In this document: one piece after another, positions 5,554 through 58,240 of the stretch
Layout: the number at the start of each line of letters is the position of its first letter
Numbering within the stretch: the first letter of the stretch is position 1
Source: Streptacidiphilus carbonis
Lineage (GTDB): Bacteria; Actinomycetota; Actinomycetes; Streptomycetales; Streptomycetaceae
NCBI RefSeq assembly: GCF_000787775.1
Contig: NZ_BBPM01000016.1
Span: 1-64,000, forward strand
Direction: 5' to 3'
Length of the DNA stretch: 64,000 nt
Notes under the pieces: model-generated
Told to the model about the DNA's origin: nothing
What the model saw: the letters and a program-made list of their open reading frames with translations, nothing else
The model's database searches: none
Made by a program: the position numbers and the translations under genes

Positions 5554-5918
5554 CCGAGCACCTGACCGATGAGCAGCTCGCAGCCGCAGCCCGGAAGGCC
5601 GCCGTCAGCATGGTCGGCGGACTCGCCCCCGGCTTGACCGGCCTGAACATCGCCGCCGAGATCGCCGAGAAGGTCACCGCGCCCTACGCCGCCGAGATCA
5701 CCCGCTTGCGCGCCGCCCTGGCCGAGTACACGCATCCCGTCGCGACCTGCTCCAACTGCCACCACCTCGCCCCGTGGCACGTCGGCAGCCTCGGCAAGAC
5801 CGAGCGCCCCTGCACTCAGCACGCATGCGGCTGCACCGACCTCGCCACCGCGCCCGCCGCCGCCCCGTGCGCCTGCACCACGGAGCCCGTCCACCAGCAC
5901 GGCTGCCCGCGCTTCTGA
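5550..5918 (+). CDS. Hypothetical Cys/His-rich protein (122 aa)
   Basis: The N-terminal 60 residues are helical (LTDEQLAAAARKAAVSMVGG). The C-terminal 55 are a dense Cys/His array (TCSNCHHLAPWH, TQHACGCTD, CACTTEPVHQHGC), probably binding zinc. It lies directly upstream of the cytosine methyltransferase. Function unknown. Confidence 0.6.
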   Translation: MTEHLTDEQLAAAARKAAVSMVGGLAPGLTGLNIAAEIAEKVTAPYAAEITRLRAALAEYTHPVATCSNCHHLAPWHVGSLGKTERPCTQHACGCTDLATAPAAAPCACTTEPVHQHGCPRF

Positions 5919-5959
5919 CCCCGGCGCGGACCGCGCCCACCGACCACCTGAGGAGCACC

Positions 5960-17926: not shown

Positions 17927-18139
17927 TCAGGTGTCGGGGCAGCTGTGCCCGTCGCAGCTGTTGCAGTGGTGCCAGGCGAGCGGGTTGCCGACGAAGGCGG
18001 CTGCGGCGAGCGTGGCGCGGGCTGCGAGGGCGGCGAGGAACTCGGGGCGGAGCATCAGCGCGCCGGGTTCTTTGGTCATCTCGGCGTTGATCTTGCGGAT
18101 GAGCGGGTTCAACTCCGACAGGTCCAGGTCGTCAGGCAT
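17927..18139 (-). CDS. Hypothetical protein (70 aa)
   Basis: Starts MPDDLDLSELNPLIRKINAE; the C-terminus has HHCNSCDGHSC, a likely metal site. It overlaps the upstream gene by 8 nt. Unknown function. Confidence 0.5.
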   Translation of the reverse strand: MPDDLDLSELNPLIRKINAEMTKEPGALMLRPEFLAALAARATLAAAAFVGNPLAWHHCNSCDGHSCPDT

Positions 18140-18677
18140 CGTCGGCGACCTCGGTCCACTCGCCACCGGGAACGTCCCGGTGCAGCAGTGCGACGCAGGC
18201 CCACGACGGGTCCTTGACGAAGAACTCGGCCCCCTGCCGGGACTTGCAGGTCAGCACGTTGCCGTTCTGGGCACGCGCACCCCACAAGCAGGCGTCATCG
18301 CGCCGCTGCCGGGCCTCGTCGACGTGGTTGTTGTGCAGGTCGACGGCCTCCTGCGTGCCAACAGTCTCGGCCCAGATCTCGACCGCATCGAAGTACCGGT
18401 GGTACAGGTCGCGCAGGTCGTCGCCGTCCACCGGCAGGCCCGTGTCCTCGAAGTCGGGGCTGTAGTTCTCGGCGGCGTACTCGTAGCCCTCGTTCTCGAC
18501 CTTCCAGACGAAAGCGACGAACTCCAGCCAGTCGTAGTCGGACAGGCCGGTCGGGTTCTGGATGTCGGACATGGTCGGGCCCTCCTGGCAAGGGCTGAGG
18601 TTGGAGTGGGCGTCACGGCCGCAACCGCAGCGGACACCGCCAGGGCCGTAGGTGATCGCGGCGTCGAGGTCAGGCAT
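18132..18677 (-). CDS. Hypothetical protein (181 aa)
   Basis: N-terminal CGCGRDAH and SPCQEG motif, then a helical acidic domain (YDWLEFVAFVWKVENEGYEY) and a C-terminal part with CKSRQGAEFFVKDPSWAC. A strong AGGAGG before an in-frame ATG at 18572 offers a shorter 146-aa product; the upstream start overlaps the preceding gene by 8 nt, as is usual in this operon. Confidence 0.55.
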   Translation of the reverse strand: MPDLDAAITYGPGGVRCGCGRDAHSNLSPCQEGPTMSDIQNPTGLSDYDWLEFVAFVWKVENEGYEYAAENYSPDFEDTGLPVDGDDLRDLYHRYFDAVEIWAETVGTQEAVDLHNNHVDEARQRRDDACLWGARAQNGNVLTCKSRQGAEFFVKDPSWACVALLHRDVPGGEWTEVADDA

Positions 18678-18969
18678 CCTCGGCCTCCTCGACGTAGCCG
18701 CTGATGGTGCGGTACAGGTCGGGGTTGCTGAGGCAGGCCTCGATGACCGTGGACAGGATCCAGCTGTCCTTCGGGAAGTCGTCGCCCTTGGGGTGCCTGG
18801 TGCCCTGGACGTAGCCCATGACGGCGGCTTCCTTCATCAGCACCCGCTCCCGCTCGGTGAAGGTGCCGAAGCGTTCGGCTGCCTGCTGGCGGCGTTCGGC
18901 CGCACGGTTGGCGAAGAGGGTGAGCAGGGCGTCGGGCAGCGGCGGGTCGACGGCGGTGGGTTCGGGCAT
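18670..18969 (-). CDS. Hypothetical protein (99 aa)
   Basis: Helical (LPDALLTLFANRAAERRQQA, FTERERVLMKEAAVMGYVQG). It starts in an ATGA overlap with the upstream gene. The GxVQGTRHPKGDDFPKDS section recurs in small Streptomyces phage proteins of unknown role. Confidence 0.55.
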   Translation of the reverse strand: MPEPTAVDPPLPDALLTLFANRAAERRQQAAERFGTFTERERVLMKEAAVMGYVQGTRHPKGDDFPKDSWILSTVIEACLSNPDLYRTISGYVEEAEDA

Positions 18970-19388
18970 CAGCCGGCCGCCTTCGCCACGGGCTTGCGGT
19001 CGCGTGCGCCTTGGGCGACGCCGATGGCGAAGTTGATGCCCGCCACGCGCGCGGGGTCGGGGGCGATCCGCAGTGACGTCAGCAGGGTGTCGAGGACGTC
19101 GTTGATGCCGTCGGCGCGCACGTCGGCCAGGTACGGGGCGAGGGCGGCGTTCATCTCGGCGTCGGTGCCCTGCATGGCCTGCCACACGGCGAGGATCTTG
19201 GGGAGGGCGATGGCGAACGCGTCGGTGTCCCACTCGCCCTTCCGCAGCCGGGACTGGCACTTGGCGGGCCAGGTGGAGCAGGCGCAGGCGCGGTCGTGGT
19301 AGTAGTCCGCGAGCGTCTGGTTGCCGACGTCGATCAGGGCTTCGAGGGTCGCGGTGGGGAGGTCGAGAGGGTCGGCGGGCTCAGACAT
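18969..19388 (-). CDS. Hypothetical protein (139 aa)
   Basis: Helical protein with a CACSTWPAKC cluster near residue 35. AAAAGGA ribosome-binding site. Probably the first gene of a transcription sub-unit, given the AT-rich region at 19389-19460. Confidence 0.55.
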   Translation of the reverse strand: MSEPADPLDLPTATLEALIDVGNQTLADYYHDRACACSTWPAKCQSRLRKGEWDTDAFAIALPKILAVWQAMQGTDAEMNAALAPYLADVRADGINDVLDTLLTSLRIAPDPARVAGINFAIGVAQGARDRKPVAKAAG

Positions 19389-19433
19389 GAGGGTGATCCT
19401 TTTGGGATAGTTTGTGTGGGTTTATCATCTCAT

Positions 19434-19455
19434 CCTGACGCATGATCAGGTCAGG
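19434..19455. promoter_or_regulatory. Inverted repeat CCTGAC-n10-GTCAGG upstream of the 19388 gene
   Basis: A 6-bp dyad lies in an AT-rich gap (19389-19460) between two leftward genes. On the minus strand GATGATAAAC follows it, a possible -10 region. A promoter with an operator is plausible, but no clear -35 box was found. Confidence 0.35.
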
Positions 19456-19510
19456 GAACGGCCCCATCCGCCCCGCCAAAACCGCACGCCGGAGAGGGCG
19501 GTGGGGCAGG

Positions 19511-19954
19511 TCAGCCCTGGGCCGGCTCGTCCACGACTGCAATCTGGAAGCCGTAGCCGTAGTAGAACGGGTTGCCGCTCGACCAGCCCACGGTCAGCTC
19601 CAGCACGTCGCCCATGTCCGCGTAGATGTGCCAGCGCGTGAACTCGTCCGTCGTGCCGACGCCGGTGATGACGTGGTCGATGCGCTCCGGGTGCAGCAGG
19701 AACGCCTCCAGCTCTGTGAACGCGCAGCAGTCGTCGGTATCGACGAGGAAGACCCGCTTGCCGCTGTCGAGCGTCAGAGCCGTGCCCCGGCCGCGCCAGC
19801 TGTTCGCCGACTCCGGGATTACGGCGTCCCTCTCGATCATTACGATCCGGTGCCCAACGACCGCGTCAGCGAGCGCGCTGACGTTCCTCGGCATCGTGCC
19901 GTCGTCGACCTCGTCGGACAGGGTCTCGATCTCGTAGCTCACTGCTTCGGACAT
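19511..19954 (-). CDS. DUF7448-like protein (147 aa)
   Basis: VVGHRIVMIERDAVIP, GTALTLDSGKRVFLVDTDDC and the CCAFTELE block resemble the DUF7448-type phage proteins with a conserved D-x-DCCA motif. Function unknown. It sits between the helicase and the small-gene run. Confidence 0.6.
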   Translation of the reverse strand: MSEAVSYEIETLSDEVDDGTMPRNVSALADAVVGHRIVMIERDAVIPESANSWRGRGTALTLDSGKRVFLVDTDDCCAFTELEAFLLHPERIDHVITGVGTTDEFTRWHIYADMGDVLELTVGWSSGNPFYYGYGFQIAVVDEPAQG

Positions 19955-19983
19955 GGTGGGACTCGCTTTCGGTTGAGGGTTGA

Positions 19984-21321
19984 TCAGACGAGCGTGACGA
20001 GCCGGGCGTAGTGGCCCTGCTGCTCGAGGTCGACTTCGCGTCCGCGCGGCCCGTTGCGGTTCTTGCCGACCTCGAGGTGGCGGACGCCGTTGTCGGGGCC
20101 CGGGTTGGCGGGGTCGTCGGGGATGTCCTTGGAGATCAGCAGGATCACGTTGGAGTCCTGCTCGATCTGGCTGGAGTCCTTGAAATCGGACACCAGCGGC
20201 TTGCGGCCGACCTGCCCCCGGTTGAACTGGGCCAGTGCCATCACGGGGACCTGGAACTCCATGGCGAGGAGCTTCAGGCCGCGCGAGATGTCGGCGACTT
20301 CCTGGGTGCGGTTCCTCGAGCCCGGCCCCTCGGGTGCGATCAGTTGGAGGTAGTCCGCGACGACGAGGGCTGGCGGGTTGCCCGTGGAGTGCATCCACCG
20401 GACCCGGGCGCGGATCTTGGACAGGGACAGGCCGGGTGAGTCGTCGAGGATGAAGTTGGTGGCGTTGCGGAGCCGGTCGGCGACCTTGGCGATGCGCTCC
20501 CAGTCCGGTTCGATCAGCTTGCGGTTGACGAGCCTGGACAGGTTCACGCTGGCTTCGGCGGCGGTGAGGCGGGCCAGCAGTTCGGTGCCGCCCATCTCCA
20601 TGGAGGCGACGAGGACGGGCCGGTTGCGGCGCAGTGCCACGTGCGCGGCGCAGTTGAAGCCGAGGAGCGACTTGCCGCCGGAGGTCTCCGCGCCGACCGC
20701 GATCAGGTCGCCGGGCTTGAAGCTGGTGACCTCATTCAGGTCCTTCCACGGGGTGTCGAGGGCGTTGGGGTCCTCGCCTGCCTCGAGCTGGTCGATGAAG
20801 TCGTCCCACCGCTCCCCTACGGACAGCTTGGGTGCGTCCTTGGGCGAGCCGAGGATCAGGGCTTGGAGGTCGGCGATGGTGGTGTCGAGGATGTCGTCGG
20901 GGTTGTCGCGCTCGAGGCTGCGGCGGACGGTGCGGGCGGCGATCTCGTAGATGCGGCGGAGCTTGGCGGTGTCGCGGACGATGCCGGCGTACCAGTCGGC
21001 GTTGGCGCTGACCGGCACAGCGGCGACGAGGCGGTGCAGGTATTCGCTGCCGCCGATGCGGTCGAGCTCTCCGACTTTGAGGAGCTGCGCGCCGACGGTG
21101 ATCGGGTCGGGTGTGATGCCGGGTTGTCCGTGGACTTCGAGGATTGCGGTGTGAATGGTGGCGTGGGCGGTGCGGTAGTAGTCGCCGGGGCCGGCGAGGG
21201 TGTCGGTGGCGTCGTCGATGGCTCGTTCGCCGAGGAGCATGCTGCCGAGGAGTGCCCGTTCGGCGGAGAGGTCACGCGGACGCGGGTCCTCTTCCTCGAG
21301 GTGCTCGGGCTGGTCGTTCAT
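19984..21321 (-). CDS. dnaB: Replicative DNA helicase, DnaB-like
   Basis: 445 residues, normal for phage DnaB proteins. An N-terminal DnaB_N domain (17-115, SAERALLGSMLLGERAIDD) is followed by a RecA-like ATPase: Walker A GAETSGGKS (210-218), Walker B LVVADYLQLI (319-328, Asp323), and a later Gln/Arg region (MALAQFNRGQVGRKPLVSDF, DSSQIEQDSNVILLI). It should unwind DNA 5' to 3' at the replication fork as a hexamer. Its ATG overlaps the stop of the winged-helix replication protein, which likely loads it. Confidence 0.95.
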   Translation of the reverse strand: MNDQPEHLEEEDPRPRDLSAERALLGSMLLGERAIDDATDTLAGPGDYYRTAHATIHTAILEVHGQPGITPDPITVGAQLLKVGELDRIGGSEYLHRLVAAVPVSANADWYAGIVRDTAKLRRIYEIAARTVRRSLERDNPDDILDTTIADLQALILGSPKDAPKLSVGERWDDFIDQLEAGEDPNALDTPWKDLNEVTSFKPGDLIAVGAETSGGKSLLGFNCAAHVALRRNRPVLVASMEMGGTELLARLTAAEASVNLSRLVNRKLIEPDWERIAKVADRLRNATNFILDDSPGLSLSKIRARVRWMHSTGNPPALVVADYLQLIAPEGPGSRNRTQEVADISRGLKLLAMEFQVPVMALAQFNRGQVGRKPLVSDFKDSSQIEQDSNVILLISKDIPDDPANPGPDNGVRHLEVGKNRNGPRGREVDLEQQGHYARLVTLV

Positions 21322-22202
21322 GCGGCGGCGTCCTTGGTGTGGTCGGGGTGGCAGGTTCGGCATGGCGCGGAGCTGCGGAATCCGTCGGCGTCTTCGGTGG
21401 TGCGACGCCGGGTGGCGGGGTTGCAGTCCTCGTCCTCGCACCACGGGGTGGTTGGGCCGCCGGGCGAGGCGCGGGTCTTGGCGGTGGGCTTCTTGATCAG
21501 GTCGGCGATGCGGACGGGCAGGACGGTGATGAAGTTCTTGATCCCACCGGGGTTCTTCGTCAACTCGGTGGCGAGGTCGTCGTCCAAGTCCCAGCCCTGT
21601 GCGTGGATGGCTTCCAGGAGCTGCGGGGCGAGCTTGGCGGCCGTGGCGCGTCCGACGGCCCAGGGTCCGGGCAGCGACTGGAGGAAGGTCTCGGCTGCTT
21701 GTTGCTGGTCTCCTCCGCCTCCTCCTGGGGTGGTGGAGGCAGGCGGGTCGGCAGGTGCGGAGGTGGTGGTCTCTGGTGGGGTGGTGGTGATGTGGTCGGG
21801 TGAGCCGACCGATTCCGCTTCGGATTGGTCGGGTGAGCCGACCACCCCTGGTCGGGTAGGCCGACCGATTTCAGATTTGGGATCGGTCGGGTGAGCCGAC
21901 CGATTGGTGGTCTCGGGTCGCCGGTGGCCGACTGCTCCACGGAGCCGATACACGCTGGCTCCGTAGCGGCCTTTCTCGCCCTCAACGACTTCCAGTTCTC
22001 CGGCTTTCAGGAGCACCTGGATCGCGTCGGTGACGGCCTCGCGGGTGCAGTTCGCCCGCTGCTGGAGAAAGGTCACGGACCCGTAGGCCTTGCATTCTCT
22101 GGCGGCCGGCAGAGCCTTGTCGGCGAGGGCCAGCAGCACGAGGCGGCCCACCCCCTTGGAGCTGGAGTGGTTCCACACCCAGTCCATCGCATCAAGGCTC
22201 AC
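21318..22202 (-). CDS. Winged-helix replication initiator / helicase-loader candidate
   Basis: 294 residues. Residues 1-90 form a wHTH (AMDWVWNHSSSKGVGRLVLL, then VTFLQQRANCTREAVTDAIQ). Residues 95-170 are a Pro/Thr/Ser-rich linker. Residues 170-245 are helical and the C-terminus has CEDEDC and CRTCHPDH. The order initiator-then-DnaB matches lambda O/P-type modules. The linker DNA carries four iteron-like repeats. GAAGAG precedes the GTG at 22202. Confidence 0.75.
   Translation of the reverse strand: MSLDAMDWVWNHSSSKGVGRLVLLALADKALPAARECKAYGSVTFLQQRANCTREAVTDAIQVLLKAGELEVVEGEKGRYGASVYRLRGAVGHRRPETTNRSAHPTDPKSEIGRPTRPGVVGSPDQSEAESVGSPDHITTTPPETTTSAPADPPASTTPGGGGGDQQQAAETFLQSLPGPWAVGRATAAKLAPQLLEAIHAQGWDLDDDLATELTKNPGGIKNFITVLPVRIADLIKKPTAKTRASPGGPTTPWCEDEDCNPATRRRTTEDADGFRSSAPCRTCHPDHTKDAAA
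21794..21901. repeat. Four iteron-like 17-bp dyads; candidate replication origin
   Basis: GGTCGGGTGAGCCGACC occurs at 21794-21810, 21827-21843 and 21885-21901. A variant GGTCGGGTAGGCCGACC lies at 21850-21866. Each is itself a dyad (GGTCGG/CCGACC), and three of the four are followed by GATT. Start-to-start spacing is 33, 23 and 35 bp. The copies fall in different reading frames of the host gene, so the DNA and not the protein sequence is conserved. An origin inside an initiator gene is known for lambda O. Confidence 0.75.
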
Positions 22203-22248
22203 GTGCTCTTCTCTCGAACGTCGCGTCAGGAGTCGCTGGCCGGGCGCG

Positions 22249-22479
22249 TCAGTCCGCGAGCATGAACTTGTCGACGGTGAGCTTGTAGGCAGTGGCGAGT
22301 TGGCCGAGCGTGGCGAGACTGGGGCGGTTCTCCTGCCGGGTGATCCGGGAGAGGACGCCGGGGTCGACGCCGGAGCGGCGGGAGATTCGTGAGAGGTGCA
22401 GCCGGCCGTCGTTTCGGACATCTCCGGCGAGGGTGGCAGCAGCTTGGAGGGTGGCGAGGTTGAGCTTGTAGGTGGCCAC
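22249..22479 (-). CDS. XRE-family Cro-like regulator (76 aa)
   Basis: HTH_XRE pattern: LSRISRRSGVDPGVLSRITR, then RPSLATLGQLATAYKLTVDK. The small size matches Cro-type repressors. GAAAGG precedes the GTG at 22479. It is first in the leftward operon and divergent from the larger XRE protein at 22720, so the pair likely forms the lysis-lysogeny switch. Confidence 0.8.
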   Translation of the reverse strand: MATYKLNLATLQAAATLAGDVRNDGRLHLSRISRRSGVDPGVLSRITRQENRPSLATLGQLATAYKLTVDKFMLAD

Positions 22480-22538
22480 AGATGGCCTTTCGATGTGGGT
22501 GCGTTTTGGCAGGGAGGTGCAGTGCGAGCACCGTGTGC

Positions 22539-22577
22539 CGCTACACAAAGCATACCCCATTTGCTGTGGCGCTACAA
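22539..22577 (-). promoter_or_regulatory. Leftward early promoter with CGCTAC operator half-sites
   Basis: On the minus strand -35 TTGTAG (22577-22572) and -10 TATGCT (22554-22549) are separated by 17 bp. CGCTAC half-sites at 22570-22575 and 22539-22544 overlap the -35 box and the expected start point. They should let a regulator block transcription of the Cro-like/initiator/DnaB operon. Confidence 0.6.
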
Positions 22578-22650
22578 CGAGACTGGTGCGCGGCACCCCC
22601 TGGCAGGCGACCGAATTTGGCCACGACCTGCACGAATGTGACCCCGATCA

Positions 22651-22679
22651 ACGACAGCGGGTAGCGCGCACGCTACGAT
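22651..22679 (+). promoter_or_regulatory. Rightward promoter of the repressor-like gene with GTAGCG-n4-CGCTAC operator
   Basis: -35 ACGACA (22651-22656) and -10 TACGAT (22674-22679) lie 17 bp apart. The dyad GTAGCGCGCACGCTAC (22661-22676) fills the spacer and touches the -10. It carries the same CGCTAC half-site as the opposed leftward promoter, consistent with cross-regulation. Confidence 0.55.
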
Positions 22680-22719
22680 CTGCACGTATTGATGGGCGCG
22701 CACACGAAACGGACGGGGC

Positions 22720-23172
22720 ATGAGCGGCGAACACGACGACTTCGCCCGCTGGCTGCGCGAACGCGCCCGCATCGCCGGCTTCGACCTCGACCAGCGCGGC
22801 ATGACCTCACGCCTCGCCGAAGCCTCCGGCATCGACCCCGCCCAGATGAGCCGAGCAGTACGCGGCCTCAGCGTCCCCGCCATCGAAGGCCAGCGCGGCC
22901 TCGCCAAAGCGCTAGGCCTCAAGCTGCCCGAGGTCATGATCCGCGCCGGATCAGCCACACCCGACGACTTCCCGCCCCAGTGGGACCTCGACGACTCCCC
23001 GGCCCCGCCGCTCTCCTCGCGGGACATCGAGAGCGTCTACCTGACCATGTACGCGTCCCGCTTCAGAATCACCGACCAGGACACACGGCGCTTCATCCGG
23101 ATGGTCAAGGCGCTCGCCACCGAGCTGGGCCACGGCCACATCGAGGATGAGCAGCCCGCCTCGGACGGCTAG
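22720..23172 (+). CDS. XRE-family repressor candidate (150 aa)
   Basis: HTH at residues 28-65 (MTSRLAEASGIDPAQMSRAV, then RGLSVPAIEGQRGLAKALGL) and a helical C-terminal part (SRDIESVYLTMYASRFRITD) that may dimerise. No S24 protease domain is visible, so any inactivation would not be by LexA-like cleavage. Divergent from the Cro-like gene with shared half-sites. A GGACGGGG sequence precedes the ATG. Confidence 0.75.
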   Translation: MSGEHDDFARWLRERARIAGFDLDQRGMTSRLAEASGIDPAQMSRAVRGLSVPAIEGQRGLAKALGLKLPEVMIRAGSATPDDFPPQWDLDDSPAPPLSSRDIESVYLTMYASRFRITDQDTRRFIRMVKALATELGHGHIEDEQPASDG

Positions 23173-23287
23173 CCTGTCCCCGGCGCGCGTCTGCCAGCGA
23201 AGGGACCCGGCGCGCGCCTTCTACACGCCCACGTCCCTCGCCCGGGTGGTTTCACCCGCACCCACCACACCCGGCCGCCCGCGCCCG

Positions 23288-23293
23288 TACCGT
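23288..23293 (+). promoter_or_regulatory. -10 box TACCGT, 7 nt from the ATG
   Basis: TACCGT fits the actinobacterial TANNNT -10 pattern and lies 7 nt before the ATG at 23301, which lacks a Shine-Dalgarno. This fits a leaderless transcript. No -35 was found. Confidence 0.4.
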
Positions 23294-23300
23294 GCCAGGC

Positions 23301-23516
23301 ATGACCGGCATCAGCGCGTTCACCGTTTCGACCGCGGCAGGCCAGCCCACACCACCCTGCCTCGTCTGCGGCCACCCGACCGAGAAGGTCACCGAGTACG
23401 CCGACAACGGGCGCGTCGAGGTCCACTACGAGCCGTGCGGGCACCGCGAATGGGTCGGCGGCACACCCCTCCTGGAAATGTGGCTGCTCCTCGCCGCGAT
23501 CAACGGAGGCGACTGA
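23301..23516 (+). CDS. Hypothetical Cys-containing protein (71 aa), probably leaderless
   Basis: CLVCGHPTEK and a later EPCGHREW suggest a zinc ribbon, and the C-terminus is hydrophobic (LLEMWLLLAAING). Without a Shine-Dalgarno the ATG is best explained by leaderless translation. Followed by a strong hairpin, it looks like a monocistronic unit. Confidence 0.55.
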   Translation: MTGISAFTVSTAAGQPTPPCLVCGHPTEKVTEYADNGRVEVHYEPCGHREWVGGTPLLEMWLLLAAINGGD

Positions 23517-23538
23517 GCGGGCGCGCCACCGGCGTACC

Positions 23539-23579
23539 GTGAAGGCCACCTTCCAGTGCGCCCGGCAGGTGGCCTTCAC
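23539..23579 (+). terminator. Hairpin terminator
   Basis: Perfect 13-bp stem GTGAAGGCCACCT / AGGTGGCCTTCAC with a 15-nt loop, 20 nt past the stop of the 71-aa gene. No T tract. Confidence 0.65.
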
Positions 23580-23622
23580 CACCAACCCTAGCCGTCGTCG
23601 CCCCAGCGCTCGAACCTGCCGC

Positions 23623-23628
23623 TAACGT
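23623..23628 (+). promoter_or_regulatory. -10 box TAACGT, 6 nt from the ATG
   Basis: TAACGT sits 6 nt before the ATG at 23635. GGAGG overlaps this gap but is only 1 nt from the ATG, too close to act as a Shine-Dalgarno, so leaderless initiation is favoured. Confidence 0.4.
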
Positions 23629-23634
23629 GGAGGC

Positions 23635-24129
23635 ATGCGCCCGGACCGATTCCAGACCCTGCTCGCCAACCACCTCCCCGCATTGCCCGGCATCACCAAA
23701 ACCGAGACCTTCGCCGACGCCGGACACGACCGCTCCCCCTACGGCCTCGTCATCCACCACGACAACGGGGCTCGCACCTGGTGGCAGATCACCGCCACCT
23801 CCCGCCCCGGCGACGTCTACAGCCAGCCCGAAGGCGAACCCGTCACCGGCGAGCGGCAGGCCGAACTGCCGATGCCGAACCTCGCCGGGGAGCGAGTCGA
23901 CACCGCGGCCGTCGAAGGCGCCATCGCCGCCGTGCTGCTCCAGGCCGACGCTGCCGGGGAGGTCGCCGCGATGCTCCGCTACTCCCAGCGGGAGAACCCC
24001 GGTGCGATCAGCCACGGCCTGACCGTCCACTTCCACGACGGATCGAAGATCTTCGTCAACGGCCTCGCCGCCTCCCGCGGATCCGAACCCCGGCCGTCTT
24101 CGTACTTCAAGCTCGACGCCCACGTCTGA
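23635..24129 (+). CDS. Hypothetical protein (164 aa)
   Basis: A beta-rich protein (YGLVIHHDNGARTWWQITAT, HGLTVHFHDGSKIFVNGLA) with two similar halves, each ending in an HxDG segment. No family recognised. Probably leaderless; coupled to the 43-aa gene 10 nt downstream. Confidence 0.6.
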   Translation: MRPDRFQTLLANHLPALPGITKTETFADAGHDRSPYGLVIHHDNGARTWWQITATSRPGDVYSQPEGEPVTGERQAELPMPNLAGERVDTAAVEGAIAAVLLQADAAGEVAAMLRYSQRENPGAISHGLTVHFHDGSKIFVNGLAASRGSEPRPSSYFKLDAHV

Positions 24130-24139
24130 GGGAGTCACC

Positions 24140-24271
24140 ATGGCACCGAACGGCAAATGCCCCAGCTGCGGGCAGCGCATCGGCTCCAAGCCCGGCCAGC
24201 CCACCACCCCGCACAGCCTGCCCGACAACCCCAACAAGGCATGCAAGGGCGGCACCACGCTGCCGCTGTAG
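24140..24271 (+). CDS. Tiny zinc-ribbon-like protein (43 aa)
   Basis: Sequence begins MAPNGKCPSCGQRIGSKPGQ and later has a single Cys (NKACKGG). GGAG precedes the ATG. It is short but has a ribosome-binding site, coding-like codon use and a terminator 12 nt after its stop. Confidence 0.55.
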   Translation: MAPNGKCPSCGQRIGSKPGQPTTPHSLPDNPNKACKGGTTLPL

Positions 24272-24282
24272 CCGAGCACGAC

Positions 24283-24317
24283 GAAGCGCCCGCCACCTCC
24301 ACGGTGGCGGGCGCTTC
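24283..24317. terminator. Bidirectional hairpin terminator
   Basis: Perfect 15-bp stem GAAGCGCCCGCCACC / GGTGGCGGGCGCTTC with a 5-nt loop, between convergent genes. Confidence 0.75.
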
Positions 24318-24330
24318 TGCATGTCCGGGG

Positions 24331-24837
24331 CTACTCGGCCGGCGGGTCGGCGGCGACCAGGCTGTAGTAGCGCGCCTCGGACCACTTTGGCGCGCCAACG
24401 ATCTCGGCACGACCAGCGGCAACCAGTGCCCGCAGCGTGTTGTGGGCCGAGGTTGTCGAGAACCCGCTCTCAAGAGCCAGTTCAAGCGCCGAGAAGCGCC
24501 GCCCCCCGTAGCCGTTGAGCACGATTCCAGTCAGGACGGGCGACCCGCATGCGCGCTTGCGGCCCCGGTTGAACACCACGTTGTGCTTCGGCCGCTCGGC
24601 GGCAATGGCCTTGCCTTCGGCAAGCGCAGCCTCGCTGCGAGACGGGTACCAGGTGACCTTGTAGCTAGTGACGTTGCGCCACCAACTCCGGTCGGCGTGC
24701 GAGTACCAGCGCTTCGCAGGCTCCAGGCATATCCCGATGTACAGGACCTGCCCCTCCCGGTCGAAGAACCGGTAGAGGGCGACCTCCTCGTCATTCGTTC
24801 GGTTGATCATCTCGCCGCTGGTTGAGCGCTGCGTCAT
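24331..24837 (-). CDS. GIY-YIG domain protein fused to a winged helix
   Basis: Residues 20-90 match the GIY-YIG nuclease layout: ALYRFFDREGQVLYIGICLE, then RWYSHAD, with a downstream Glu (EGKAIAAERP). Residues 105-165 form a wHTH (FSALELALESGFSTTSAHNT). GIY-YIG enzymes cut DNA using Tyr, Arg and Glu. The first Tyr is in an LYRF context, so activity is probable but not certain. It overlaps the HTH gene upstream by 47 nt. Confidence 0.7.
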   Translation of the reverse strand: MTQRSTSGEMINRTNDEEVALYRFFDREGQVLYIGICLEPAKRWYSHADRSWWRNVTSYKVTWYPSRSEAALAEGKAIAAERPKHNVVFNRGRKRACGSPVLTGIVLNGYGGRRFSALELALESGFSTTSAHNTLRALVAAGRAEIVGAPKWSEARYYSLVAADPPAE

Positions 24838-25129
24838 TCGCGCCGGTCTCTCTCTTGCTGCGGTGGACGCCGTGCACGGGCTTCCGATTCCGGAAGTACT
24901 CCTCGATGGGCGGCCACGGGATCTGGAAGTACGGCCCGAGCTTCTTCCACGACTCGCGCGGGACGGGCCAGTTCGGGTCGGTCTTCGAGAGCTGGCTCAC
25001 GCGCTCCCTCGTCATCGTCTGCGCGTAGCCCAGATCGACGACGCGACGGGCGATCTCAGCGAGGGTCACCAACTCCTGCACCTCCCCTGTGGGTCCGCCG
25101 TTTTCGGGCACACCGGTAGTATCTCCCAT
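24791..25129 (-). CDS. HTH DNA-binding protein (112 aa)
   Basis: LVTLAEIARRVVDLGYAQTM and TRERVSQLSKTDPNWPVPRE form an AlpA/MerR-like HTH with the typical DPxWPxP turn used to recognise short operators. GAGGTC before the ATG at 25129 gives a plausible ribosome-binding site. It is divergent from the transfer-module operon, with dyads between, so it may regulate both sides. Confidence 0.65.
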   Translation of the reverse strand: MGDTTGVPENGGPTGEVQELVTLAEIARRVVDLGYAQTMTRERVSQLSKTDPNWPVPRESWKKLGPYFQIPWPPIEEYFRNRKPVHGVHRSKRETGANDAALNQRRDDQPNE

Positions 25130-25153
25130 GACCTTGACCTCAAGTCAATATCA

Positions 25154-25172
25154 GTGCTTCCATGGGAAGCAC
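25154..25172. promoter_or_regulatory. 19-bp dyad operator candidate GTGCTTCC-atg-GGAAGCAC
   Basis: A perfect 8-bp inverted repeat around ATG lies in the gap between the leftward HTH gene and the rightward operon that leads into the transfer genes. It is centred 34 bp upstream of the HTH start codon, a typical autoregulatory position. Confidence 0.5.
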
Positions 25173-25192
25173 GCTCTTCCGACAGAGAGCGA

Positions 25193-25229
25193 CCCCCGTT
25201 CCGCGGTTTCTGAGGCGGCGGAACGGGGG
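25193..25229. repeat. 12-bp inverted repeat CCCCCGTTCCGC / GCGGAACGGGGG
   Basis: The perfect stem with a 13-nt loop lies between divergent starts, so it should not simply terminate an upstream gene. It could be an RNA leader structure of the rightward operon or a protein-binding site. Confidence 0.5.
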
Positions 25230-25268
25230 CCTAGAGCAAGCCCTTGACCTTGACGGGAAGGCAAGCCC

Positions 25269-25610
25269 ATGGTTTCGCATGGTACAGACGGTGCGATCTC
25301 CAGCACAGACCCGACGCGGCTGATCGACTCCGGCTCCCACAGCGTGGCTCTGTCGCTGCCGACCGACTTCGACGTCGACCACGCCCTCGGCGCCTACGGT
25401 GACGCCGCCCCGCTGAGCCCCCGCGACTGGCGCGGCCACATCGACCCCGCCTCCATCCCCACCGCGCCGCACACCGCCCCGTCCATGACCGCGCAGCAGG
25501 TCACCGAGGCCTTGCGCGGCAGCGACGTCGACGACGGCTGGCACGGCAGCATCGAACGCCCCGCAGCCTGGGCCGCGTTCGGCGACGGGGACGGAGGCAA
25601 CGCGGCATGA
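25269..25610 (+). CDS. Hypothetical protein (113 aa)
   Basis: Acidic, mostly unstructured N-terminus and a section WHGSIERPAAWAAFGDGDGG. GGGAAGG precedes the ATG. It is the first gene of the rightward operon that includes the transfer module. No family recognised. Confidence 0.6.
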   Translation: MVSHGTDGAISSTDPTRLIDSGSHSVALSLPTDFDVDHALGAYGDAAPLSPRDWRGHIDPASIPTAPHTAPSMTAQQVTEALRGSDVDDGWHGSIERPAAWAAFGDGDGGNAA

Positions 25611-26589: not shown

Positions 26590-26901
26590 GTGAACACCAG
26601 CCCAACGACCGCACTGATCGCCCTGCTCGCCGTAGCGGCCGGACTCCTCACCGGGTACTACACGCCGGCCCTGATCCCGGGGCTGGTGTTCGGGGTGATC
26701 GCCTACGTCGCCGTCGTCCTCGGCGCCATCCGACTCCTCCACCTCAACCGCGACACCACCCTCATCAACACCACCCGCTGCGTCCTCGTCGCCGCCTGCC
26801 TCACCCTCCACGCCATCCTCCGCGGCTGCATCGCAGGCCTCAACGCCCTCAACCGCTGGGACATCAACGCCATCGCACGAACGGGAGCATCCACGCCGTG
26901 A
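26590..26901 (+). CDS. Small membrane protein of the transfer module (103 aa)
   Basis: Two or three hydrophobic segments: residues 7-38 (TALIALLAVAAGLLTGYYTP, LIPGLVFGVIAYVAVVLGAI) and 60-80. GAGGAG precedes the GTG. Small membrane proteins are typical neighbours of Spd/Tra genes in Streptomyces conjugative elements. A role in plasmid-like spread is inferred from context. Its stop overlaps the DUF2637 gene. Confidence 0.6.
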   Translation: MNTSPTTALIALLAVAAGLLTGYYTPALIPGLVFGVIAYVAVVLGAIRLLHLNRDTTLINTTRCVLVAACLTLHAILRGCIAGLNALNRWDINAIARTGASTP

Positions 26902-27749
26902 CCGAGGACAAGCCGATGGCCTCACCCGCGACACTGCGCCGCATCGCGCTGGGCACCGTCATCGCCACCATCGCCCTGACCGGTACCGCGTTCTGGCTCT
27001 CCTACGAACACCTGCACGACGTCGCCAGGCACTACGGACTCGACGGCAGCCGCGCCTGGGCATGGCCCGCGACCGTCGACCTGTTCATCGTCATCGGCGA
27101 AGCCCTGATCCTCAGCGCATCACTGCAGCGCCTGACCGACAGGGCCGCCATCGTCCTGGCCGTCATCGGCTCCACCGGATCCATTGCCCTCAACGTCGCC
27201 GGCGTCGGCAGCCACGCCCCCGGCATGACCTACGTCGTTGCCGCCGTGCCACCGTGCGCGGCGCTTCTGGCGTTCGGCGCGCTGATGCGGCAGATCCACG
27301 AGAACCTCTCAGGTGGCAGCCGGGCGGAGACTGGCAGTGGCAGCAGTGCGCCTGCCAGCGCACCGCCAGAGCCTGCCAGTCGAGCGGCTGCCAGCGCCCC
27401 TGCCACCCCTGCCACTCCCCCGGCTGCCACCCCTGGCAGGACCGTGCCAGAGCCCGGCGCGGCCCCCGCTGGCACGCCTGCCAGCCCGCGGCCCGCCACC
27501 CCTGGCAAGGCGCCCGCGGCAGCCGCTGGCACTTCGGACAGCACCCTCGCTGCCGCCAGCGAGGCCCGGGATCTCGACGAGGTCGCCGACACCTACCGCA
27601 AGCTCGCCGCAGCCCTCGGCCGCGCCCCATCGGACAAGGCACTCGCCGACGCCCTCGGCGTGGGCCGCTCCCGCGCGCAGCAGTTGCGCTCCGCCGCCGC
27701 CGAAGCAGGGCACGCCGATCTGGCCAAAGCGCTCCGGGCGGCATCATGA
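26898..27749 (+). CDS. SpdB-like DUF2637 membrane protein with C-terminal HTH
   Basis: 283 residues. Four hydrophobic segments (about 17-37, 59-80, 88-108, 112-132), with WAWPATVDLFIVIGEALILS matching DUF2637/SpdB2 proteins. These help intra-mycelial spread of Streptomyces conjugative plasmids and AICEs. Residues 140-215 are a low-complexity Ala/Pro/Ser linker. Residues 220-280 are a helical HTH-like end (DKALADALGVGRSRAQQLRS). The linker DNA is unusually rich in TGGCAG/CTGCCA. The gene overlaps the DNA translocase by 4 nt. Confidence 0.8.
   Translation: MTEDKPMASPATLRRIALGTVIATIALTGTAFWLSYEHLHDVARHYGLDGSRAWAWPATVDLFIVIGEALILSASLQRLTDRAAIVLAVIGSTGSIALNVAGVGSHAPGMTYVVAAVPPCAALLAFGALMRQIHENLSGGSRAETGSGSSAPASAPPEPASRAAASAPATPATPPAATPGRTVPEPGAAPAGTPASPRPATPGKAPAAAAGTSDSTLAAASEARDLDEVADTYRKLAAALGRAPSDKALADALGVGRSRAQQLRSAAAEAGHADLAKALRAAS
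27314..27507. repeat. Cluster of TGGCAG/CTGCCA hexamers (copy 1)
   Basis: About a dozen copies occur in 170 bp: TGGCAG at 27314, 27332, 27338 and 27434; CTGCCA at 27352, 27373, 27388, 27400, 27409, 27424 and 27478; plus shorter TGGCA cores. Within the Ala/Pro linker, CCT and GCT codons that are rare elsewhere in the window are used, as if DNA sequence were under selection. Confidence 0.55.
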
Positions 27750-29704
27750 CCGCCCCCAGTGACGTGACGCCGACCCCGCAGCTCTCGAAAACGCTCCGGC
27801 CTGCACCGATGCTCCCAGCCGTCACCACGTCACGTCACGGCGCTTCCCTCGCGGGCAGCCTGGAGACGTTCGCCGCCTGGTGCTCCCGACGCCGCTACGA
27901 GGCCGCTCCGCTCGCCGGGAACGCCGCCCTGACCGGCATCGCCTGGACCGAGAACCTTTCCGGCGTCGGCCTGGGAACCGGCCTGGCCTACGGTGCGGCC
28001 ACCGCAGCCTCCGGGGCACTCGCCGGCTTGGCCCTCAAGCACAAGCACCAGCACCTCGCCTCCGCCGGAGCCGGACTGACCGCGATCCTCGCCGACGCCG
28101 GCATCAACGCCATGGCCGGCCCGTCGACCGCCGGCCTGATTGCCAGTGCTATTGCCACCGCTGCCAGCTACGCCGTCTACATCCCCTGGTTGACCCGGCA
28201 CCGGCACGAGCGGTTGGCACTCCACGTCCAGGCCGCCAAGGCTGGCACCCTGGCAGGTGGCATGGGGCTGGCAGCGCAGGCCCCTGGCATCACGGGTGGC
28301 AGCGCGGAGGAGACCGCGATCTACCGGGCCCTGGCAGCCCTGGGTGCCACGCCGCTGTCCATCGACGCGTTCCAGTCGAACGCCAGCGGCTGGGTCGCCC
28401 TGGTGACCCTGCCGCCGGGCCGGGCCACGAGCCCGGGTGCGGTGTCCGCGAAGCGCGAGCAGCTGCGCACCAACCTCGGTCTGCCCGGACGGCTCACGCT
28501 GGGCCAGGGCCCGCAGGGCAACCAGCTGATCATCCGGATGCAGACCGTCGACCCGCTCGCCGACCCCATCCCGTGGCCCGGCCCGTCGATCACCTCCGTG
28601 AAGCAGGCCATGACAGTGGGCCTGTTCGCGGACGGCACCCCGATCCTCCTCGACGTCATGGCCGACCACATCCTCGTCGCCGGGGCCACCGACAAGGGCA
28701 AGTCGGGTCTCCTCAACGTCATCATCGCCAACCTCGCAGGCTGCCCCGACGTCAAGATCCTCGGCATCGACATGAAGCCCGGCGCCCTGGAACTCGGCCC
28801 CTGGCAGGCCGTCATGCACGCCCTGGCCTCCGGGGCCGAGGGTGCCGAGGCCGTCGCGGACTACGTCGTGCGTGAGATGGAACTCCGCGGCGAGCACCTC
28901 GCCACCCTGCGCGGCCCGGACGGTGAGCCGGTCCGCAAGTGGATCCCCGGCAACCCCGACGCCGACCCCGACTCGCCCGAGTGGGGCCACGGCGACGCCT
29001 GGGTGCTGGTCATCGACGAGCTGGCCGAGTTGGTCCGGCAGACCCCGAAGGTCGCCGACCGGCTCATCACCCTCAACCAGGTCGCCCGCGCCATGGGCAT
29101 CCGGATCCTCGCCGCCACCCAGTCCCCGTCCGAGCGCGCGTTCGGCGGCAAGGGCACCGACGCCCGCCAGCAGTACGGCACCCGCATCGGCCTGGGCGTC
29201 AACGAGTCCGTGACCGTGAACCTGATCCTCGGCGCCGGTGCGCTCGGCGCCGGCTGGCGGCTGCAGGACCTGGACGCCCCCGGCAAGCTGATGATCTCCT
29301 CGAAGCGGTACGGGCAGCCGCAGGAAGCCCGCGCCTACTGGATCGGCGACGGCCAGATCGCCGCGACCGCGCGCCTCAACGCCACCCGCAAGGCCGACCC
29401 GGACGGAACCCCGCCGGACGGCGGCGGCACGAAGCCGCGGCTGCTGAAGTCCGTGCCCTGCTTCCCTGACGGCTCCGAGATCCCCGCGAACCGGCAGTCC
29501 CTGTGGCAGGCCCTGGACCGGCGCGGCGCCGAGGGCGCGACGATCCTCGAACTCCTCGCCGAGGTCGCCGGGACGGGCCTGAACCAGCGCACGTCGATCT
29601 CCGACCCGATCCAGTCCTGGAAGGCCCGCGGCTGGGTCGTCGACGGCGGTCGCCGCGACGCCTCCAAGGTCTTCATCCTCGCCCGCCACGCCGAAGCAGC
29701 CTGA
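27746..29704 (+). CDS. FtsK/SpoIIIE-type DNA translocase (TraB/TraSA-like transfer protein)
   Basis: 652 residues. An N-terminal membrane region (about 55-150) has Gly/Ala-rich helices. A RecA-like motor follows, with Walker A-like GATDKGKS near residue 312 (Asp replaces the usual third Gly) and Walker B WVLVIDELAEL near 420. ATQSPSERAFGG follows as the FtsK-type sensor. A C-terminal wHTH-like domain (ATILELLAEVAGTGLNQRTS) parallels the gamma domain that reads DNA repeats. In Streptomyces TraB or TraSA alone moves double-stranded DNA between cells. Here it could serve transfer or prophage DNA segregation. Confidence 0.85.
   Translation: MTAPSDVTPTPQLSKTLRPAPMLPAVTTSRHGASLAGSLETFAAWCSRRRYEAAPLAGNAALTGIAWTENLSGVGLGTGLAYGAATAASGALAGLALKHKHQHLASAGAGLTAILADAGINAMAGPSTAGLIASAIATAASYAVYIPWLTRHRHERLALHVQAAKAGTLAGGMGLAAQAPGITGGSAEETAIYRALAALGATPLSIDAFQSNASGWVALVTLPPGRATSPGAVSAKREQLRTNLGLPGRLTLGQGPQGNQLIIRMQTVDPLADPIPWPGPSITSVKQAMTVGLFADGTPILLDVMADHILVAGATDKGKSGLLNVIIANLAGCPDVKILGIDMKPGALELGPWQAVMHALASGAEGAEAVADYVVREMELRGEHLATLRGPDGEPVRKWIPGNPDADPDSPEWGHGDAWVLVIDELAELVRQTPKVADRLITLNQVARAMGIRILAATQSPSERAFGGKGTDARQQYGTRIGLGVNESVTVNLILGAGALGAGWRLQDLDAPGKLMISSKRYGQPQEARAYWIGDGQIAATARLNATRKADPDGTPPDGGGTKPRLLKSVPCFPDGSEIPANRQSLWQALDRRGAEGATILELLAEVAGTGLNQRTSISDPIQSWKARGWVVDGGRRDASKVFILARHAEAA
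27759..27838. repeat. 11-bp inverted repeat GTGACGTGACG / CGTCACGTCAC at the start of the translocase gene
   Basis: Arms at 27759-27769 and 27828-27838 are separated by 58 bp, and each holds two GTGAC units. The second arm uses rare TCA and CGT codons, suggesting DNA-level constraint. It could be an operator for autoregulation or part of a transfer locus. Confidence 0.45.
28140..28349. repeat. Cluster of TGGCA-core motifs (copy 2)
   Basis: Inside the translocase gene: TTGCCA at 28140 and 28152; CTGCCA at 28161; TTGGCA at 28214; TGGCAG at 28251, 28269, 28297 and 28332; additional TGGCA at 28243, 28258 and 28285. The codons chosen (GCA, GGT, GCT, CCT, GGG) depart from the GCC/GGC norm of the gene. 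Confidence 0.5.
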
Positions 29705-32793: not shown

Positions 32794-33177
32794 GTGACCG
32801 TGCCTGAGCTTCCGCTACACCACGACATCACCGTCACCTGCGGATCCCAGTGGAACGACGACGCCTACGAGCTCAAGAACGACAACGGCAGCCTGATCGA
32901 CATCAGCACCGCAGAGTTCGAGTTCGTGATCCGCCCCAACACCGTGGACCGCACCCAACCCGGCATGGTCACCGTCACCAGCACCCAGGCCACCGCCCAG
33001 GGCTACATCACCGTGACCGCCGCGACCTCCACGATCCTCGTGGTCCTGTCGCCCACCGCCACCGCGCTCCTGGCCGGCAACGCGTACCCGTACGACCTGT
33101 GGATGAACCCCGGCGGCCCGACCGCCATGGTCTGGGTTCGCGGCGTCGTGTTCTCCGAACTCGCCCCTGCGGCCTGA
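32794..33177 (+). CDS. Virion-associated beta-rich protein (127 aa)
   Basis: ITVTCGSQWNDDAYELKNDN then FEFVIRPNTVDRTQPG, a beta-sandwich pattern resembling small phage tail or baseplate proteins. It directly precedes a fibre gene and may be its chaperone or adaptor. AAGG precedes the GTG; a second GTG at 32800 is also possible. Confidence 0.6.
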   Translation: MTVPELPLHHDITVTCGSQWNDDAYELKNDNGSLIDISTAEFEFVIRPNTVDRTQPGMVTVTSTQATAQGYITVTAATSTILVVLSPTATALLAGNAYPYDLWMNPGGPTAMVWVRGVVFSELAPAA

Positions 33178-33188
33178 GAGGGGTGACT

Positions 33189-35150
33189 GTGCCCAACGTC
33201 ATCGTCTCCGCGGCTGGCGTCCAGGGTCCGCGCGGCAACACGATCCTGTCCGGTATCGGCGCGCCCACCAGCGCGGTGGGCGTCGACGGCGACTTCTACT
33301 TCGACAAGACGAACTTTCCGTCGAGCGTGGTCCTGTACGGGCCGCGCGTCGCCGGACTGTGGCCCAGCTCGGGCGTGACCGTTGGCGGCACCGCGGGCGC
33401 GCTGGTTGCGGCGAACAACTTGTCCGACGTTCTCAGCGCGAGCGTGGCCCGCACGAACCTCGGGCTCGGCTCGGCGGCCACTCAGGCGGCGGGCGCGTTC
33501 GACGCGTTCGGGGCCGCGAGTGCTGCGCAGTCCGGTGCGATCGCTGACGCGGCCACGAAGTACCAGCCCCTGCAGCCGTGGGTGTTCGACGTTGTTCGGG
33601 CGTACGGCGCGAAGGGTGACGGGCAGATCGTCACCGACGGCGTCATGGCGTCGGGAAGTGCCGTAGTCACCTCGGCCAGCGGCAAGTTCGGAAACGTCAC
33701 AGCCAACATGCTCGTCATGGCCAAGGGCGCCGGTGCGACCGGCGTGACGACCCTGGTCGCGACCGCCGCCAGCAAGCAGTCCAGCAACCAGATCACCCTG
33801 AATGCCGTCAACGCCACCGGGACGGCCCTGACCGGTCTGACGATCATGTGGGCGAGCGACGACACCACGGCGATCCAGAGCGCCATCAACGACGCCGTCG
33901 CCTACGCACAATCCCACGGCGGCGCAGCGACGGTGCTGATCCCCGCGGCCCTCGGCGAGTTCTACGGCATCGGCGGCCCCCTGGTCACCACCGCATCGGG
34001 CAACGCGCAGCTGACGATCCCCGTCGTCTCCAGCACCGGCAACAAGCTGGTGCTGACGTTCCAGGGTGCTGGCGACGGTGCGGCGGTGCAGTACTGGCAG
34101 CAGGTCCCGCCGCAGATGAGCGGCAGCACCCTCGTGTCCTTCGGCGTGTTCGCGGGTCCGTCGGCGCAGGCCACGAGCATCACGAACCACGGCAACCCGT
34201 CGCTGCTCGGCGGACCGTCGCAGCCCGGCGGCTATGGTGTCGCACCCGGCGTGTACACCAACGTCGACGTCGTGATGCGGGGCCTGTCGCTGCGCACCAC
34301 GCACTCCGCAGACGGTCTGGGCTACACCGCGATGGACTTCGACGGCTGCGCGAACGCCGCCCTCCACGACGTCGGCTACGGATCCCTGGGTACGGTCGCG
34401 AACGGCGACTTCGGCAACCCGGGAGTGTTCGGCACCGGCCTGTCCATCGGGCTGCTGATGCCAGCGTCCGGCAACAACGACCTGTGCATCCTCGACAACG
34501 TCACCTGCCACGGCGGGTACACGTACGCCGCGTTCGTCACCGAGCACACTGACATGTTCGGGGTGCGACTGCTGTACTGCTGGGCCGGGCTGTGCCCCGT
34601 GGGCCTGTACTTCGGCTCCGTCGGGTCGGTCCATGCGATCCGTGGGTTCGTGTCGGTGGAGGCGTGCCACTACCACCTGTACATCGTCGGCGGCGGTTCC
34701 GGTGGCGTGGGCCCGTTCCTGCACCTGCTGCTGGACACCGAGGGCACGGTCCTGTTCGGCGACAACGGCGCTGGCGCCCCGTCGGCGGCGGCCAAGGGTC
34801 AGGTGATCCTGACCGGCGAGGTCACCCTGCCGATCACGATCGACCATCCGCCGGGCTTCGACATCGTCAACGACCAGGTTTCGTTCGCGACTGCGGCGGT
34901 CAGTAGCGCCTACACGCTGACGCCGCTCGACGAGGTCGTAGAGGTCACCGGTACGACCACGGTGACGCTGCCGACCGCTGTCGGCCGCGCCCGGCGCGTC
35001 GTGATCGTCAACGTCGGCACGGGCACCGTCACCGTGGCCACGACGGGCGGCCAGACCATCAGCGGCTCTGCGACGAAGACCCTCGCCTCGCAGTGGAGCT
35101 CGCTGGAAGCCGTGCCGTCGCCGTCGGGGAACTGGACCCAGATCGCGTGA
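33189..35150 (+). CDS. Tail fibre/spike with pectate-lyase fold
   Basis: 653 residues. An N-terminal collagen-like hint (GVQGPRGNT) and linker are followed near 130-270 by the Pectate_lyase_3 entry motif (VRAYGAKGDGQIVTDG, then DDTTAIQSAINDAVAYA). A right-handed beta-helix and a C-terminal beta domain (VEVTGTTTVTLPTAVGRARR) follow. Such proteins bind or cleave surface glycans during adsorption. GAGAGGG supports GTG 33189 over 33183. Its place upstream of terminase is unusual. Confidence 0.8.
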   Translation: MPNVIVSAAGVQGPRGNTILSGIGAPTSAVGVDGDFYFDKTNFPSSVVLYGPRVAGLWPSSGVTVGGTAGALVAANNLSDVLSASVARTNLGLGSAATQAAGAFDAFGAASAAQSGAIADAATKYQPLQPWVFDVVRAYGAKGDGQIVTDGVMASGSAVVTSASGKFGNVTANMLVMAKGAGATGVTTLVATAASKQSSNQITLNAVNATGTALTGLTIMWASDDTTAIQSAINDAVAYAQSHGGAATVLIPAALGEFYGIGGPLVTTASGNAQLTIPVVSSTGNKLVLTFQGAGDGAAVQYWQQVPPQMSGSTLVSFGVFAGPSAQATSITNHGNPSLLGGPSQPGGYGVAPGVYTNVDVVMRGLSLRTTHSADGLGYTAMDFDGCANAALHDVGYGSLGTVANGDFGNPGVFGTGLSIGLLMPASGNNDLCILDNVTCHGGYTYAAFVTEHTDMFGVRLLYCWAGLCPVGLYFGSVGSVHAIRGFVSVEACHYHLYIVGGGSGGVGPFLHLLLDTEGTVLFGDNGAGAPSAAAKGQVILTGEVTLPITIDHPPGFDIVNDQVSFATAAVSSAYTLTPLDEVVEVTGTTTVTLPTAVGRARRVVIVNVGTGTVTVATTGGQTISGSATKTLASQWSSLEAVPSPSGNWTQIA

Positions 35151-58232: not shown

Positions 58233-58240
58233 GGGGCACG

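Follow-up and report, generated by a model that had tools for sequence, protein, structure and literature searches.

The region of dyad repeats described here is, at a probability that we put at roughly 0.83, the replication origin of a Streptomyces-type prophage, embedded in the gene for its own initiator. The DNA analysed (hereafter the window) comprises bases 1-64000 of a 156-kb contig from a genome of 8.46 Mb, most probably that of a streptomycete to judge by its relatives, and family matches identify among its phage genes those for terminase, portal, major head and tape-measure proteins. The principle of an embedded origin is already known from lambda O and pSK41 Rep, and pSLA2 is reportedly another instance of it. 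The new elements are this family and the many iteron sequences it contains, their covariation with the protein, and the link to plasmids; the portions of the literature searched yielded no mapped origin for this Streptomyces phage family.

Results

Four dyads lie in the coding linker of an initiator gene

The layout of the locus is given in Table 1. A sequence-only reading of this DNA had placed four 17-bp dyads, one of them a variant, inside the initiator gene, and their positions are as it described: iterons 1, 3 and 4 are identical copies of GGTCGGGTGAGCCGACC, and iteron 2 is GGTCGGGTAGGCCGACC, which has two mismatches. Read along the coding strand, the dyads begin at nt 302, 337, 360 and 393 of the gene (frames 1, 0, 2 and 2, respectively), and translation in these frames returns the peptides that had been reported from three codon frames (V-G-S-P-D twice, G-R-P-T-R and R-S-A-H-P-T). 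The dyads were also said to fall in the flexible linker of a winged helix-turn-helix (wHTH) initiator just upstream of dnaB. AlphaFold agrees, with a wHTH over residues 1-98 and predicted disorder over residues 101-160, and the next gene encodes DnaB.

Table 1. Features of the initiator locus, in coordinates of the window
Feature	Position	Strand	Basis
Initiator gene, 294 aa, GTG start; wHTH, linker and C-terminal domain	21318..22202	-	
Predicted wHTH, residues 1-98	21909..22202	-	AlphaFold, pLDDT block means 84-98; generic wHTH fold matches
Predicted recognition helix, codons 54-67	22002..22043	-	AlphaFold and family covariation (R54, E55, T58)
Iteron 1 (dyad), frame 1, encodes RSAHPT	21885..21901	-	
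Iteron 2 (variant dyad), frame 0, encodes GRPTR	21850..21866	-	
Iteron 3 (dyad), frame 2, encodes VGSPD	21827..21843	-	
Iteron 4 (dyad), frame 2, encodes VGSPD	21794..21810	-	
Linker with iterons, codons 99-163, predicted disordered	21714..21908	-	pLDDT block means 44-51, residues 101-160
C-terminal domain, codons 164-294, common to plasmid proteins encoded beside DnaB	21321..21713	-	
DnaB-type replicative helicase	19984..21321	-	PF03796 4.8e-57, PF00772 6.3e-22, phrog_19 6.8e-90
HTH_3 regulator, immediately upstream of initiator gene	22249..22482	-	

Among PHROG families the initiator protein matches 'replication initiation protein' (phrog_6643, 3.7e-24) and 'replication initiation O-like' (phrog_391, 2.5e-10; phrog_8540, 6.2e-10); a Pfam search at E up to 0.1 matched no family, including RepA_N. 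The AlphaFold model has a helix at residues 43-50 and the recognition helix at 54-67. When the predicted wHTH was searched with Foldseek, 4pql, 5kbj and 4pt7 were among the top matches, all weak (E 0.015-0.14), and the top titles were 'N-terminal domain of DNA binding protein' and 'Rep-DNA complex' (E 0.015-0.057), structures that we take to be staphylococcal Rep domains. VIA Z values of 7.6 (4pql) and 7.5 (4pt7) are level with or below those of unrelated wHTH proteins. In this fold search the absence of a match carries no information.

The repeats exceed shuffled sequence

The window contains eight matches to the dyad at three or fewer mismatches, against 1.29 expected, and 0 of 100 shuffles reached eight. 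Besides the four dyads themselves, these matches comprise three of the dyads counted a second time on the opposite strand and a weak site at 40923. We then compared the initiator gene with codon shuffles, which preserve both protein sequence and codon usage. A 12-mer present three times in the gene was not found in three copies in any of 2000 such shuffles; the longest exact repeat was 21 nt, compared with at most 18 nt in the 2000 shuffles; and a 17-mer occurred twice in 16 of the 2000. The dyad score of the gene was reached by 0 of 100 codon shuffles. The repeats are independent of the protein sequence, and we reject chance as their source on the window shuffles and the codon shuffles.

The same scores were applied to controls. 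For lambda O, the repeat score recovers exactly the four annotated iterons (0/20 shuffles) and the stricter dyad score finds three sites (0/60 shuffles). Among 27 other open reading frames of the window, the long ones trimmed to 1200 nt, the dyad score of two exceeded all 60 shuffles and that of four was reached by three or fewer of 60; for the repeat score, one exceeded all 20 shuffles. Because some control frames also beat their shuffles, the result for one gene is only suggestive, and the weight is therefore borne by the comparison across the family.

Linker repeats keep their position across the family while their sequence varies

Homologues were collected from viral contigs, species genomes (among the matches listed), 394 family genomes, three phages and one plasmid record. 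A match to the initiator was present in 63 of the 394 family genomes, and 70 of the 72 rows from this source were used (30 loci and 40 stretches); the two unused rows both belong to a split gene in G083. The domain was present in 120 of 129 sources, which gave 110 distinct genes, the window's included.

Each gene was scored against 100 of its own codon shuffles with a dyad model in which 6-bp arms flank a 5-bp spacer. The score exceeded all 100 shuffles in 44 of the 110 genes and was reached by five or fewer in 70; 75 genes had at least three linker dyads with a score reached by no more than 10 of 100 shuffles. Three of these (L078, L084 and L125), whose best half-site appeared doubtful, were excluded from the covariation set, leaving 72 genes in 38 clusters at 80% identity. 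A second repeat test found another linker repeat family in 24 of the 38 remaining genes, L078 among them. Repeats thus follow the wHTH, within the linker, in 96 of the 110 distinct genes, the window's included. Significant linker repeats were absent from 14 (L084, L113-L115, the truncated L117 and L120-L128), and these include all nine homologues with the weakest domain match (L120-L128). In L121, L124 and L126 the linker has a sequence like GGTGGTAATACTCC and its complement, below significance.

The 72 genes carry three to eight dyad copies, mostly four to six, often at regular spacing (for example 17-17-23-22-23 in L015-L018 and L021). The half-site is GGTCGG in the window gene, in its nearest relative L008 and also in L049, and GGTCCG or GGGCCG in many other relatives; further half-sites include GGTGCA, GGGTCA, GGTTCA, GCCCCG, GGTAGC and GTGCCG. 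The position of the repeats is therefore kept across the family and their sequence varies by clade. A DnaB open reading frame was seen at only 15 of the 110 homologous loci, which counts against the origin reading, but many of these loci cover only about 1.5 kb downstream.

These data bear on whether the repeats might arise secondarily, from selection on the amino acids of a repetitive linker peptide. V-G-S-P-D does occur twice in the window linker, G-P-x-S-G-P repeats occur in many relatives, and the twice-present 17-mer does arise in some codon shuffles. However, the DNA repeats surpass shuffles that preserve the protein, and 67 of the 72 genes read them in two or three frames (three in 30, two in 37; one in 5). 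We consider this explanation scarcely credible, and reject a peptide-repeat origin on the codon shuffles and frame usage.

Searched with tblastn against phages, the window protein (P0001) gave no match. With the relative L028 as query, 10 related phage records were found, of which SV1, ToastyFinz and Eklok were looked at. With L050 as query there were 204 phage records, all below 60% identity, with hosts including Mycobacterium, Arthrobacter, Pseudomonas and others; these form a broader set of O-like genes. One 68059-bp IMG/VR contig (L040/L041) encodes an identical initiator protein at ~8.6-8.9 kb and at 66.1-66.4 kb; its double occurrence suggests terminal duplication, or else two passes around a circular genome.

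Half-site bases covary most with the first residues of the predicted recognition helix

Mutual information was calculated between the half-site bases and 92 columns of the wHTH alignment. Columns 53, 56, 52 and 42 ranked highest, and correspond to E55, T58, R54 and T44 of the window protein; the recognition helix predicted by AlphaFold begins with R54 and E55 as its residues 1 and 2 and has T58 as residue 5. The top pairs were base 2 with R54 (column 52), base 3 with T58 (column 56) and base 4 with E55 (column 53). The family-wise p was 0.005 for each in 400 tree simulations, and 0.005, 0.005 and 0.002 in a second run. Under this null, characters were simulated on a tree from which columns 42, 52, 53, 56 and 60 had been left out, a set picked after the mutual-information ranking was known. 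Bases 5 and 6 had no significant column against the tree-simulated null, and base 1 was too invariant.

The underlying counts, which ignore relatedness and are descriptive, are as follows. Base 3 is G in 37 of the 72 genes, and in all 37 column 56 is R or K; base 3 is T in 28 genes, where column 56 is V, I, L, T or S in 24 and R in four. Base 4 is G in six genes, with R at column 53 in five of them.

Control positions outside the dyad arms were also significant, so the null is too lenient and the covariation p-values are too small. Flanking controls gave family-wise p of 0.012, 0.022, 0.125 and 0.042 at columns 80, 92, 19 and 65, of which column 65 is the last residue of the recognition helix; the inner spacer controls gave 0.002 at column 51, the residue directly before the helix, and 0.010 at column 18. 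In the second run the arm signals had Z of 6.1 to 7.1, compared with 4.0 to 5.0 for the flanks, and one spacer position was as strong as the arms. Sign tests on independent pairs had two to five usable pairs, too few to decide; they were never opposite in sign and not significant. Despite the lenient null, we find it persuasive, as a pattern in aligned sequences, that the three arm signals each land within the opening turns of the predicted recognition helix. The start of this helix appears to match half-site bases 2-4, and the N-terminal domain is the putative iteron binder.

The sequence-only reading had called the region a strong candidate origin, and had tied that proposal to conservation of the repeats in relatives. 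Both the breadth of linker repeats in the family and the helix covariation support the proposal. What is conserved is the presence of repeats, their sequence diverging in step with the recognition helix.

The C-terminal domain and DnaB recur with other N-terminal domains

Residues 165-286 of the initiator have counterparts among plasmid proteins from Streptomyces, Kitasatospora and Frankia (48 records); among the best 30 of the 48, 28 match through the C-terminal domain and two through the N-terminal domain. The core of the C-terminal domain matched 43 plasmid records, and the domain is 45% identical over 134 columns to one plasmid protein. Besides the window, 20 loci carrying this domain were analysed: five hand-picked plasmid matches (L129-L133) and all 15 matching genome loci apart from the window's own (L135-L149). 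L132 and L135 are identical in sequence, leaving 19 distinct loci.

By the A2 profile, none of the 20 loci has the initiator wHTH; a DnaB open reading frame lies nearby in 18. Repeats within the open frame exceed all 30 codon shuffles at 12 of the 20 loci (11 of the 19 distinct), and at three more the repeat score was reached by 1-3 of 30; in L129, L130, L141, L142 and L147 the repeats were not above their own 30 codon shuffles. All 12 repeat-bearing loci have at least four sites within the 420 nt before the C-terminal domain; more than one frame (two or three) is used in 11 of them, and a single frame in L145. The repeats differ among replicons, for example AATCGGGGAAAACCCC in a plasmid of S. 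mobaraensis and GGGTCCAGCTCCC in Frankia pFQ12.

The layout looks modular, because the C-terminal domain and DnaB recur with other N-terminal domains and with their own linker repeats. As judged from these loci, one plan (DNA-binding domain, iterons in a coding linker, C-terminal domain, DnaB) seems to have been built with differing N-terminal domains, and the C-terminal domain is a probable helicase partner.

This arrangement also bears on the possibility that the dyads are sites of some other protein, for instance a ParB-type centromere or targets of neighbouring HTH regulators, two genes for which lie within 1 kb. The half-site bases, compared with the columns of the initiator wHTH only, vary together with the recognition helix of the protein whose own gene contains them, and replicons with other N-terminal domains have other repeats in the same spot. 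We therefore regard another protein as a very unlikely reader of the dyads, and retain the initiator as the candidate.

A low-GC stretch follows the iterons in most relatives

In 75 genes, the 45 bp past the last iteron have a mean GC of 0.572, compared with 0.704 for the whole gene. The lowest-GC 40-mer starts between -20 and +60 of the end of the last iteron in 60 of 72 genes and in 28 of 38 clusters, the expected fraction being 0.098; in lambda O it starts directly after the last iteron. The window has no AT-rich block adjoining the iterons: GC is 0.667 in the next 45 bp, and the lowest-GC 40-mer is 227 bp beyond the iterons. The spacers between its iterons have a GC of 0.475. No DnaA boxes were found in 18001-25500 at one or fewer mismatches to three 9-mer box sequences.

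The missing AT-rich element is one reason to ask whether the same protein binds the dyads in order to repress its own operon, as at an internal operator or roadblock, with the origin elsewhere; another is that covariation indicates a match between protein and site, not what the sites are for. Against this, the sites lie ~300-410 nt into the gene, in the linker and not at a promoter, and several regularly spaced copies with a low-GC stretch after them in most relatives are origin-like, as in lambda O. Autorepression as the sole role of the dyads is therefore unlikely, and an origin within the gene remains our preferred reading.

Comparison with known embedded origins

Lambda has four iterons and Stx phages six, in the middle of O beside an AT-rich region (PMC7466680). 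The sequence-only reading had likened the placing of the dyads to that of lambda ori in gene O, and in several respects this stands. Dyad iterons lie mid-gene, at nearly matching positions (nt 349-433 of 900 in lambda; 302-409 of 885 in the window), three reading frames are used in both, and the window initiator matches O-like PHROG families. The iteron number, four in lambda and in the window, is six in Stx phages and in many relatives. The likeness fails in that the next gene in the window encodes DnaB itself, without a gene for a P-type loader, and in that the window lacks the adjoining AT-rich block, where 60 of the 72 family genes have their low-GC stretch; the iteron sequence is also unrelated. 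Because two lambda-defining features are missing, we regard the window as a variant of the embedded-origin kind and not as a lambda-type member.

The staphylococcal plasmid pSK41, whose initiator is of the RepA_N type, has four Rep boxes centrally in rep, the origin encoding the linker between the DNA-binding and C-terminal domains; in the related pPR9 the N-terminal domain and origin differ and the C-terminal domain is kept, and the pSK41 Rep C-terminal domain interacts with DnaG (PMC5703833). The window gene likewise has its iterons in a coding linker between two domains, and pPR9 and pSK41 form a close precedent for the exchange of N-terminal domain and origin on a kept C-terminal domain. 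The window initiator differs in having no RepA_N match and a C-terminal domain that sits beside DnaB.

The nearest Streptomyces precedent is the linear plasmid pSLA2, which reportedly has iterons inside rep1 plus a DnaB-like rep2, and whose origin is called phage-like in the title of a 1996 paper. The window has a layout of this kind, an iteron-bearing initiator followed by DnaB.

In the phages SV1, ToastyFinz and Eklok the homologues are annotated 'replication initiation protein', 'DNA binding protein' or 'helix-turn-helix', and linker dyads are present in all three. Their half-sites are GGGCCG (SV1, ToastyFinz) and GTCCGG (Eklok, perhaps a register shift), compared with GGTCGG in the window. 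Their next annotated gene encodes a hypothetical protein, where the window has DnaB. In a mycobacteriophage study, the repA origin was suspected inside or just upstream of repA, and repeated motifs were not found (PMC7157519). The Streptomyces plasmid pWTY27 has an iteron beside its rep genes (PMC3583192).

Discussion

We envisage that a dimer of the N-terminal wHTH would occupy each 17-bp dyad, and that bases 2-4 of each 6-bp half-site would be read by the start of the recognition helix. The four bound dyads, whose starts are 23 to 35 bp apart, might then form an O-some-like complex that shapes the origin, and the strands would open near the bound iterons. The C-terminal domain, held beyond the disordered linker, may bring in and load the DnaB encoded by the next gene, with no need for a separate loader like lambda P.

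More broadly, actinobacterial phages and plasmids may share a swappable origin cassette, in which a DNA-binding domain is fused to its own iterons on a common DnaB-recruiting C-terminal domain. In the wHTH branch, three helix residues would then be a readable code for half-site bases 2-4, the iteron copies being rewritten together with those residues within an open frame, and new origin specificities, or compatibility types, would repeatedly arise in this way. We consider the chances of this wider proposal to be evenly balanced.

If the embedded-origin reading is true, the family provides about ninety predicted origins together with a testable rule that relates three protein residues to three DNA bases, and a case in which a DNA site inside a coding region is rewritten as the protein that recognises it changes. 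The recognition rule is directly testable because protein and DNA sites change together in relatives. The family would also supply new, mutually compatible replicons for Streptomyces vectors.

Other features of the contig

A gene for a DUF2637 protein followed by one for an FtsK/SpoIIIE-type translocase lies at 26601-29704 of the window, beside phage head and tail genes, and gives this part the look of a phage-plasmid mosaic; such a pair is the arrangement of Streptomyces conjugative plasmids. A C-5 cytosine DNA methyltransferase of 599 aa is encoded at 5774-7573. The C-terminal part of the tape-measure protein (50462-54604) also matches the endolysin family phrog_971, with the best stretch at residues 975-1325. 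Two proteins are possibly receptor-binding proteins or depolymerases, a pectate-lyase/beta-helix protein at 58150-60018 and a protein with tail-fibre and pectin-lyase family matches at 32850-35150. Beyond the window on the same contig, one serine-recombinase and two tyrosine-recombinase matches, of integrase type, lie within 16 kb (70872-71381, 72651-73088 and 85995-86513), downstream of the phage genes.
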